Positions 44,701 to 49,267 of a stretch of DNA of 64,000 bases are shown here, piece after piece. Below the pieces are notes generated by a model. The model had not been told where the DNA came from. It made no database searches and saw only the letters and a list, made by a program, of their open reading frames with translations. The stretch's first letter is position 1, and each line of letters begins with the position of its first letter. Origin of the DNA: an uncultured SAR86 cluster bacterium. GTDB taxonomy: Bacteria; Pseudomonadota; Gammaproteobacteria; Magnimaribacterales; D2472. The position numbers and the translations under genes were made by a program. The stretch is from assembly GCA_902630885.1 (NCBI GenBank), contig CACOWI010000001.1, positions 124,001 to 188,000 on the forward strand. Direction: 5' to 3'.

Positions 44701-44812
44701 TATTTTATTTATCCGCTATCTAATTACTTTTTTAAAAAAGTTATATAGTTTTTTTTTGTTGGAAAAATTTAAGTAATTTTGTAGTAACGTAAATTTTATC
44801 TCCTACCATCTA

Positions 44813-44840
44813 ACTATACTTATTGTAGATAAAGAATCAA
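44813..44840 (-). promoter_or_regulatory. Candidate nrdAB promoter
   Basis: On the minus strand TTGATT (44840-44835) and TATAGT (44818-44813) are 16 bases apart, about 115 bases before the nrdA start. The first NrdR box lies eight bases upstream of this -35, which suits repression. The AT-rich context limits the weight of the match. Confidence 0.4.
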
Positions 44841-44847
44841 GTAAAAA

Positions 44848-44863
44848 ACACAATATATTGTGA
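44848..44863. promoter_or_regulatory. NrdR box 1
   Basis: ACACAATATATTGTGA fits the NrdR consensus acaCwAtATaTwGtgt closely and is nearly palindromic. It lies 148 bases upstream of nrdA. NrdR is an ATP-cone repressor of ribonucleotide reductase genes. Confidence 0.88.
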
Positions 44864-44878
44864 CAATTTCATTTTTTT

Positions 44879-44894
44879 ACACAATATAGTGTAT
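44879..44894. promoter_or_regulatory. NrdR box 2
   Basis: ACACAATATAGTGTAT is a second NrdR-type box, 31 bases (three helical turns) from the first, the usual spacing of NrdR box pairs. It lies between nrdA and the divergent glpK. The gap 44701-44961 has no gene and holds these boxes, a promoter and one DnaA box. Confidence 0.88.
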
Positions 44895-44933
44895 AAAACA
44901 TGTTTTTTTTCTGTTGGAAATAAGTGTATAAAT

Positions 44934-44942
44934 TGTGGATAA
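44934..44942 (-). promoter_or_regulatory. DnaA box in the nrdA-glpK gap
   Basis: TGTGGATAA is the exact complement of the strong DnaA box TTATCCACA. DnaA boxes upstream of nrdAB regulate that operon in E. coli, so a link of nucleotide supply to replication start is plausible here. It is also only 19 bases from the glpK start. Confidence 0.6.
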
Positions 44943-44961
44943 TTAAAGATAGAGTAATCAT

Positions 44962-47110: not shown

Positions 47111-48283
47111 ATGTATACATATAAAATCTATAATAGTGTTGCTGAGCAAGGTATTGACAGTTTAAAAAAGAACGGATTTGTAGAACACAAACATGATCCA
47201 GATGTATTGGTCATGAGAAGTCACCATTTGGTTGAGGATGATTTTAACCCATCATTGAAATGTATTTGCAGAGCAGGAGCAGGCGTTAATCATATTCCTT
47301 TAGAAATGGCCACAAAAAAAGGCGTTGCTGTCTTTAATACTCCGGGGGGGAATGCAAATGCTGTAAAAGAGCTCGTTATTTGCGGACTATTATTGTCTTC
47401 TAGAGGGATAATTCAAGGGCATAAATTTACACAAAGTATAAAAGATACTAATCATGATGATGTAACAAACCTAGTTGAATCAAATAAAAAAAACTTTAAA
47501 GGAAGTGAGTTAAAGGGAAAAACAATTGGGATAATTGGATTGGGGTCGATAGGTTCGCTTTTAGCGCAATCAGTTGAGAGTATGGGTATGAAAATTATTG
47601 GTTATGATCCAAATATTTCAATCGATTCAGCTTGGCAATTGCCTAAAGATGTCGAGAAGGCAGATGATTTAAAATATTTGTTATCTAATTCTGACTACAT
47701 ATCAATTCATGTTCCTTTGATAGAAGAAACAAAAAGTTTGATTAATAAAGACAATATTAAATATATAAAAAATGGATCAAAATTAATAAATTTATCTAGA
47801 GGGGCAATCGTAAATAATGATGATATCCTGGAAGCTTTAAAAAATAAAAAAATTAGTTGCTTTGTAACTGATTTCCCAACGCCTGATATGATAAAAAGAT
47901 CAAATGAGTTTGATGATGTAATTTTAATGCCTCATCTTGGAGCAAGCACAAAAGAAGCAGAAATAAATTGTTCAATCATGGCAGCAGAACAAGCAAATAG
48001 ATTTTTAAAAGATGGAGAAATAATTAATTCCGTAAATTTTCCAAGAGTAAGGCTTGGAAGAACAACAGAAAACAGACTGGTTATTGTTCATAAAGACCAG
48101 CCTGGAGTTTTAGGTCGCATCACGGCTGAAATCGCTACAGAAAATTTAAATATTGCCGACATGATCAATAAAAGCAGGAACGAAATTGCTATAACATTAA
48201 TTGATCTTGGTGAGGGGCCTTCAAAAAATCTTATAGATAATATCAAGAAAATGAAAAGAGTTTTTAGCATCCGAAAATGTTAG
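47111..48283 (+). CDS. serA: D-3-phosphoglycerate dehydrogenase
   Basis: SerA starts serine synthesis from 3-phosphoglycerate. The 390-residue protein has the substrate-binding CRAGAGVNHIP, the NAD motif GIIGLGSIGSLLA, LSRGAIVNNDDILEAL with the catalytic Arg and Glu regions, and His in MPHLGASTKEAE. A C-terminal ACT domain (about 315-390, VIVHKDQPGVLGRITAEIA) is likely for serine control. There is no intervening domain. Confidence 0.92.
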   Translation: MYTYKIYNSVAEQGIDSLKKNGFVEHKHDPDVLVMRSHHLVEDDFNPSLKCICRAGAGVNHIPLEMATKKGVAVFNTPGGNANAVKELVICGLLLSSRGIIQGHKFTQSIKDTNHDDVTNLVESNKKNFKGSELKGKTIGIIGLGSIGSLLAQSVESMGMKIIGYDPNISIDSAWQLPKDVEKADDLKYLLSNSDYISIHVPLIEETKSLINKDNIKYIKNGSKLINLSRGAIVNNDDILEALKNKKISCFVTDFPTPDMIKRSNEFDDVILMPHLGASTKEAEINCSIMAAEQANRFLKDGEIINSVNFPRVRLGRTTENRLVIVHKDQPGVLGRITAEIATENLNIADMINKSRNEIAITLIDLGEGPSKNLIDNIKKMKRVFSIRKC

Positions 48284-48540
48284 AAAATATACTTTTTTTA
48301 AAAATTTTATAAAAACATCTGTCTAAATTTTTAATTTGTATTGCTTTAGTCTAAAAATACTTGTCAACAGAGCAAAATGATGATAATGAAGAAGCTAATT
48401 TAAGATCTTTTTTTTGTACACTTATTTGCTTAAAATTACGTAAGTAGTTGATATAAGGCTATATTTATCTTTTTTGTACAAAATTTGTACAACTTAGACA
48501 AAAACCTTATTCTAAAGCACTTAATATGGTATAAATAAAG

Positions 48541-48549
48541 TTATCCATA
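48541..48549 (+). promoter_or_regulatory. DnaA box (TTATCCATA)
   Basis: One mismatch from the strong DnaA box TTATCCACA. It is three bases from the next box. Confidence 0.6.
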
Positions 48550-48552
48550 ACT

Positions 48553-48561
48553 TTATCCACA
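48553..48561 (+). promoter_or_regulatory. DnaA box (TTATCCACA)
   Basis: An exact strong DnaA box. With the inverted one at 48567-48575 it forms a palindrome with ten-base arms and a three-base TTT centre. Confidence 0.7.
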
Positions 48562-48566
48562 GTTTC

Positions 48567-48575
48567 TGTGGATAA
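48567..48575 (-). promoter_or_regulatory. DnaA box, inverted (TGTGGATAA)
   Basis: An exact DnaA box on the minus strand, ending 14 bases before the ung start codon. The close head-to-head pair would suit paired DnaA binding. Confidence 0.7.
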
Positions 48576-48589
48576 AATTTATAACAAAA

Positions 48590-49267
48590 ATGAACAAAAA
48601 AAATAATAAATTGCTATTACCAAAAGACTGGGAGAATGTCTTAGATCGGGAATCTTTTCTATCATCAATTGATGCACCAATAAAGTTCATAAATAAAGAA
48701 ATTGAGAAAAATAAAATTATTTGCCCGCCATATAATGAAATATTTAATGCCTTCAAATACTGTTCTTTTTCATTAACCAAAGTGGTCATATTTGGACAAG
48801 ATCCTTACTTCCAAAAGGATATTGCAAATGGATTAGCTTTCTCTGCAAGAAAAAGTCAACCAATACCATCGTCTCTTAAAAATATATACAAAGAAATTGA
48901 AAATGACGTTGGTGAATCTCAGAACAAAGATGGGTGTTTAAAAAACTGGGCAAGACAAGGCGTGCTTTTATTAAATTCATCTTTGACCGTTGAGCTCTCA
49001 AAACCTGGATCACATTCTTCAATTGGTTGGCAGTTTTTTATTGAAAATGTTTTGAAAGTTCTAATGAAAAAAAGAAATATAGTTTTTATTTTATGGGGCA
49101 ATCATGCACATAAATATTCAAAGTTTATTGATCATAAAAACAATTTAGTTTTGTTGTCAGCTCATCCGTCTCCACTTTCAGCTCATAAAGGTTTTTTTGG
49201 TTCAAAGCATTTTTCAAAATGTAATAACTATTTAAAAATTAATAATAAGAATAAAATTATTTGGTAA
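48590..49267 (+). CDS. ung: Uracil-DNA glycosylase
   Basis: Ung removes uracil from DNA. The 225-residue protein has the catalytic Asp71 in GQDPYF, ANGLAFSA, and the C-terminal HPSPLSAHKGFFG loop with the catalytic His. The first motif is normally GQDPYH; here the last residue is Phe74. Length is normal. DnaA boxes lie directly in front. It is convergent with ygfZ, with two bases between. Confidence 0.93.
   Translation: MNKKNNKLLLPKDWENVLDRESFLSSIDAPIKFINKEIEKNKIICPPYNEIFNAFKYCSFSLTKVVIFGQDPYFQKDIANGLAFSARKSQPIPSSLKNIYKEIENDVGESQNKDGCLKNWARQGVLLLNSSLTVELSKPGSHSSIGWQFFIENVLKVLMKKRNIVFILWGNHAHKYSKFIDHKNNLVLLSAHPSPLSAHKGFFGSKHFSKCNNYLKINNKNKIIW

Follow-up and report, generated by a model that had tools for sequence, protein, structure and literature searches.

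To our knowledge, the reactivation of DnaA has been worked out almost solely in E. coli, where it is performed by two loci, DARS1, in the bioD-uvrB intergenic region, and DARS2, in that between rppH and mutH. The core of both is made up of three DnaA boxes (I to III), with one and the same spacing at the two loci, and box I is reversed (PMC5742627), and the head-to-head pair formed by boxes I and II is functionally essential (PMC10380432). The ADP-DnaA assembles on boxes I-III, the complex is remodelled through DNA bending by IHF and the action of Fis, and the ADP leaves (PMC4245941, PMC8682772). The DARS1 core reads TTATCCACT-ATTCC-TGTGGATAA-CCA-TGTGTATTA and that of DARS2 TTATTCACC-TTTTC-TGTGGATAG-AGT-TGTGAAGAA, the latter having been placed at L213:651-685 by deletion primers (PMC4585315). 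Another E. coli triple, which precedes mutH (L213:967-1001) at ~280 bp from the DARS2 core, reads TTATCCCAG-CTTTC-TGTGGATAA-CAT-GGTGTAAGA, with the same 5/3 spacing, and has the IHF-like AATCAGATAATTG 84 bp beyond it. This triple was considered as the DARS2 core and rejected, given the position set by those primers, and it is possibly a relic of the class-wide layout described below.

The locus analyzed here lies between a serA-like gene and ung in a stretch of 64,000 nucleotides (the window; G000:C1:124001-188000) of a 1.06-Mb SAR86 genome that is 79% complete. The features found there are as follows, in positions of the window:

47111-48283, + strand: serA-like 2-hydroxyacid dehydrogenase gene, the upstream neighbour (Pfam)
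48361-48369, + strand: distal DnaA-like box, TTGTCAACA, 171 bp from box III
48441-48453, - strand: IHF-like site, TATCAACTACTTA, motif WATCARNNNNTTR, 87 bp from box III
48476-48490, strandless: predicted Fis site, the 15-mer GTACAAAATTTGTAC, which fits the consensus GNNYANNNNNTRNNC, 50 bp from box III
48527-48535, + strand: extended -10-like sequence TGGTATAAA, found by eye, possibly the ung promoter, which ends just 5' of box III
48541-48549, + strand: DnaA box III, TTATCCATA, with one mismatch to TTATNCACA
48553-48561, + strand: DnaA box II, TTATCCACA, 3 bp from box III
48567-48575, - strand: DnaA box I, TTATCCACA, which faces box II head-to-head across 5 bp
48590-49267, + strand: ung, uracil-DNA glycosylase, 225 aa (Pfam UDG, 4.8e-20)

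The whole element, from the distal box to box I, occupies 48361-48575, and its core (boxes III, II and I) spans 35 bp and ends 14 bp before the ung ATG (48590). An earlier note on this DNA had described three DnaA boxes in 35 bases, two of them exact and palindromic, within an unusually long non-coding gap of 306 bases, and this description holds; the intergenic gap between the serA stop codon (48283) and the ung ATG is the third longest in the window, where the median positive gap is 22 bp.

Read on the reverse strand, the SAR86 core is TTATCCACA-GAAAC-TGTGGATAA-AGT-TATGGATAA, which is identical to DARS1 and DARS2 in the orientation of the boxes and in their spacing, boxes I and II being separated by 5 bp and boxes II and III by 3 bp. 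Three features of layout that characterize a DARS are found, namely three boxes with box I opposite to II and III, the 5/3 spacing, and an intergenic position between the origin and the terminus. The likeness to DARS2 extends to consensus sites predicted for IHF and Fis beyond box III, the additional DnaA box approximately 170 bp away, and the location before a DNA-repair gene. On the other hand, the sites follow the order core, Fis (50 bp) and IHF (87 bp) in SAR86, whereas in DARS2 the IHF sites, at 58 and 74 bp, come before the essential Fis sites, and the distal box of DARS2, at 176 bp, has the opposite orientation to that of SAR86; the neighbour ung, so close to the end of the element, is a further difference. 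With DARS1, the element shares the geometry of the core and a distance to the origin of roughly a third of the genome. We know of no report of IHF or Fis sites in DARS1 (101 bp), and the SAR86 element differs from it in having consensus Fis and IHF-like sites.

The element at 48361-48575 is, in our judgement, probably a DARS2-type DnaA-reactivating control locus of SAR86, a reading drawn from features that can be read in the DNA itself, that is, the geometry, spacing and conservation of the sites, their distance from the origin, and the loss of the IHF-like site in the family that yielded no IHF gene. As the order of the sites differs from that of E. coli DARS2, the element is classed only as working like DARS2, with a core of DARS geometry and a function presumed by analogy with E. 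coli.

The significance of the boxes does not lie in their number, given that exact single DnaA boxes are not above chance in the window (3 seen, 4.2 expected), nor enriched genome-wide, with 10 exact boxes against 9 matches of the reversed control pattern; it lies, therefore, in the close head-to-head arrangement and its conservation. Among 27 congeneric species, pairwise identity is 1.0 for boxes I-III and likewise for the distal box, in comparison with 0.86 for the Fis-like site, 0.81 for the IHF-like site, 0.55-0.73 for the other spacer, and 0.41 for the fourfold-degenerate sites of ung. Box II is identical in 91/91 SAR86 loci and box I in 90/91, while box III reads TTATCCATA, TTATCCCAA, TTATCCAAA or TTTTCCCCA within the order. 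The pattern GTTATCCATAACTTTATCCACAG (up to three mismatches) has matches in 89 of the 203 genomes of the order, never more than one in each, and the DARS-type core pattern (up to one mismatch) in 138 of the 203, with zero matches of the reversed control in either case; together with 19 genomes of genus g5 that are matched only by GTTATCCATAACTTTATCCACAG, this amounts to 157 by our own count. Most of the order genomes that lack a core match are incomplete assemblies, and some good assemblies, such as the complete genome G176 of family f3, also lack one. This conservation among relatives, which the earlier note had named as a check, supports the presence of a candidate DnaA-binding site in the ung gap. 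The SAR86 ung element is also found almost unchanged on a contig of a "Flavobacteriales" MAG (L303), which is thus probably a misbinned SAR86 contig.

Boxes II and I together form a near-perfect inverted repeat (48551-48577), which could be taken for an RNA hairpin or a terminator. This is scarcely credible, however, given that box III, outside the repeat, is equally invariant, that the repeat is not followed by a T-run, that the stem never varies in a compensatory way, and that Rfam provided no credible match (two matches were far below the gathering scores).

Most genomes contain a single core, and each of the four SAR86 families has it upstream of ung. In a pattern search that made no use of ung, this gene was directly downstream in 65 of the 70 loci retrieved; of the other five, four represent an additional core of family f3, close to gcvT and an aminotransferase gene, and one is a weak chance match (L210). 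The gene on the other side of the element varies, with an old-yellow-enzyme gene (named by eye) lying between serA and the element in g5, g7 and f2. The f3 genomes concerned (loci L229, L231, L232, L233) carry the second DARS-type core besides that of ung, between the glycine-cleavage genes and an aspartate aminotransferase gene, and its box I is TTATCCACT-like, as in E. coli DARS1.

The flanking sites are also found at nearly fixed distances. A Fis-consensus 15-mer is present 49-51 bp from box III in 73/73 loci of family f1, 12/12 of f2, 18/19 of f4 and 1/7 of f3, that is, in 103/104 in f1, f2 and f4 together, against approximately 0.2 loci in total in shuffled sequence, these being consensus matches only, in related and hence not independent genomes. 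The IHF-like site, in a WATCAR form of the motif that was picked after inspecting the sequences and to which the same limits apply, lies 84-87 bp from box III in 69/73 loci of f1, 11/12 of f2 and 4/7 of f3 (84/92), and in 1/19 of f4, with approximately 0.1 loci in shuffled sequence. In the rest of the order, the distal box reads TTGCCCACA, TTACACACA, TTACGCACA, TTTTACACA or TTTCACACA, at 166-178 bp.

Family f4 has thus kept the core and the Fis site and has nearly lost the IHF-like site. A search for HU/IHF-type genes in two complete f4 genomes found a single gene in each, with HU as its best match, and no IHF gene; most of the good genomes of f1-f3 have three such genes, and those examined have IhfA or IhfB as their best match, although only one examined IHF-like gene reaches the curated cut-off and several of the IHF assignments are below it. 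The loss of the site in the family in which IHF was not found, which counts as one evolutionary event, points to IHF as the probable ligand. The source genome encodes Fis (48% identity to E. coli Fis), and the search of this 79%-complete genome found no IHF, its sole HU/IHF gene being HU, which is probably due to the incomplete assembly.

Two other readings of the palindrome upstream of the core were set aside. An operator for LexA or another regulator at TTGTACAA seems unlikely, given half-sites that differ between genera (GTAC, GATC, GGTT) while the Fis positions stay, and, in the case of an RNA structure, the inner positions 4/12 are non-complementary as often as complementary, with nothing credible in Rfam. 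A second palindrome, TTGTACAAATTATGTACAA, is found just outside the window (G000:C1:188826-188851), by a tRNA-like sequence and a queA-like gene, and fits the Fis consensus, probably by chance.

Outside SAR86, the exact core was found in 99 of 369 genomes sampled over the class Gammaproteobacteria, with zero matches of the control. In a set of 49 such loci, each with sufficient flanking sequence, 38 have TTATNCACA at 160-178 bp (0.09 in shuffles), 22 have a 15-mer that fits the Fis consensus at 49-52 bp (0.10), and 11 have WATCARNNNNTTR at 83-87 bp, in the same orientation (0.00); IHF sites with one mismatch are likewise most frequent at 85-86 bp. SAR86 thus carries, at ung, a layout that is common to the class. 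The neighbours of the class loci include priA (17/50), rpmE (7/50) and the unrelated genes lon, rimO-like, proS-like, hemN-like and peptidases, and none of these 50 loci adjoins dnaA, dnaN, mnmG or ung. Two genomes, G216 (L390/L391) and G339 (L394/L395), have two cores each, one at rpmE and the other at priA. A Hydrogenothermaceae MAG (L263) presents a dense tandem array of TTATCCACA with the same three-box match at a contig end, which looks like an origin region.

These neighbours bear on the possibility that the element is a complex cell-cycle promoter, at which DnaA (as a repressor at +1), Fis and IHF would regulate ung, with no role in DnaA reactivation. Such a promoter would fit the location of the core immediately upstream of ung wherever an ung-type SAR86 locus was checked, the window included, the extended -10-like sequence that most of the genus keeps directly upstream of box III, and the presence of the same element before priA in many other gammaproteobacteria. 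It would not account for the same layout at rpmE and the unrelated genes, nor for the head-to-head 5/3 bp geometry, which is a DARS hallmark unlike ordinary DnaA-regulated promoters, and the -10-like hexamer is gone in G007 and G010, where the boxes stay. We thus regard a promoter without further function as unlikely. The main argument for a DnaA-control locus is this independence from the neighbouring gene; the exact DARS geometry and the accompanying Fis, IHF and DnaA sites point the same way. Given how close box I is to the start of ung, the transcription of this gene is probably influenced by DnaA occupancy as well.

The array of a core, a Fis site at ~50 bp, an IHF site at ~85 bp and a DnaA box at ~169 bp may represent an ancestral gammaproteobacterial DnaA-control locus that moved between priA, rpmE and ung, with E. 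coli DARS2 as a rearranged descendant and f4 running without IHF, a tentative proposal to which we give somewhat less than an even chance. An array of four DnaA boxes with Fis and IHF sites is, in this form, not described in the literature searched, which contains no link of SAR86 or ung with DARS, nor of DARS or DnaA boxes with priA-rpmE; the conservation of DARS is reportedly described by Fujimitsu 2009, which lay outside the search results.

If the DARS2-type locus works as in E. coli, from whose DARS biochemistry the binding of ADP-DnaA, the nucleotide exchange and the roles of IHF and Fis are carried over here, ADP-DnaA would bind to the head-to-head pair of boxes I and II, helped by box III. 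The bending of the DNA by IHF, ~87 bp away, would, together with Fis at ~50 bp, bring together the core and the distal box at 171 bp, upon which ADP would leave DnaA, and ATP-DnaA would be regenerated for the following round of initiation at oriC, near dnaA. The distal box may act as a sensor of ATP-DnaA.

For the cluster, the earlier note had offered two readings, a replication origin or a DnaA-controlled ung promoter. A likeness to E. coli oriC does exist, given that the DnaA boxes cluster next to AT-rich DNA and that oriC binds IHF and Fis, for which the SAR86 sites are predicted, although the boxes of oriC are arranged head-to-tail (PMC10380432), and the SAR86 element, unlike oriC, lies far from dnaA and has neither a skew switch nor conserved AT-rich repeats. 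Two T-rich GTACA repeats are indeed present, at 48404-48421 and 48466-48480, but are not conserved as such, the second one overlapping the conserved Fis-like site, and the "13-mer" GATCTTTTTTTT, which the note had matched to one of the repeats, lies in an unconserved stretch; the AT-rich sequence by the boxes where unwinding repeats were sought (48383-48440) is unconserved in the genus.

The GC skew has no switch at ung on the 213-kb contig C1, where it is positive on both sides, with a dip over the reversed nrdA. The local flip is found instead at dnaA on contig C8, with a negative skew over the 50 kb to the left of this gene and a positive one just to the right, where only 7 kb of the contig remain. 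This contig has an origin-type cluster at rpmH|dnaA (mnmG-mnmE-yidC<>dnaA-dnaN-recF-gyrB), in which the atp genes and parB-parA-rsmG-mnmG-mnmE-yidC are on one strand and dnaA-dnaN-recF-gyrB on the other (all genes except dnaA were named from gene order and by eye), and the rpmH-dnaA gap contains a DnaA-box block that is conserved in the genus. In the near-complete genome G008 (~1.28 Mb, two contigs), the cumulative skew, computed from sequence stretches with ~90 kb left out, has its minimum at 280-400 kb and its maximum at ~1.1 Mb, with dnaA at 406 kb; this raw skew partly reflects gene orientation, and the gene-strand-corrected skew was too noisy for use. G027 has 423 kb between ung and dnaA, with ung in a positively skewed arm. 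Two of the checks named by the earlier note, the GC skew and the location of dnaA, thus turned out against its origin reading, to which we assign a negligible chance, and the site at ung is not the origin; what survives of the earlier interpretation is a candidate DnaA-binding site, given the conserved boxes, and possibly control of the ung promoter by DnaA.

Complete genomes whose sequence begins at dnaA have the element at 0.314 (G122), 0.341 (G126), 0.260 (G039), 0.356 (G190) and 0.368 (G195) of the genome from this gene, that is, between the origin and the terminus, which falls inside, or close to, the range covered by E. coli DARS1 and DARS2. This distance of 0.26-0.37 also bears on a datA-like site, which would promote the IHF-dependent hydrolysis of DnaA-ATP, or a site of DnaA titration. 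The DnaA boxes and the single IHF-like site recall the boxes and IHF site of E. coli datA, but datA is near the origin, at 94.7 min (PMC10380432), has the opposite effect on DnaA, and the head-to-head DARS core is not reported for it, so we consider this possibility quite improbable.

If the DARS2-type reading is true, the recharging of DnaA would be an ancient part of gammaproteobacterial cell-cycle control, given that the same core and the fixed spacing of the Fis, IHF and DnaA sites recur both in streamlined, uncultured bacteria of the ocean and throughout the class. The layout would also provide a sequence signature for locating such sites in any genome, and family f4, with no detectable IHF, would be a natural experiment on the role of this protein at such sites. 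For work on SAR86 growth rates by peak-to-trough ratios, a false origin candidate is removed.

Finally, in the same window, the gap upstream of nrdA (44701-44961) contains two NrdR-box-like palindromes, ACACAATATATTGTG and ACACAATATAGTGT, and an exact DnaA box (44934-44942). In the relative G008, two copies of TGTGGATAA are found in the nrdA upstream gap, an arrangement reminiscent of the DnaA-regulated nrdAB of E. coli.
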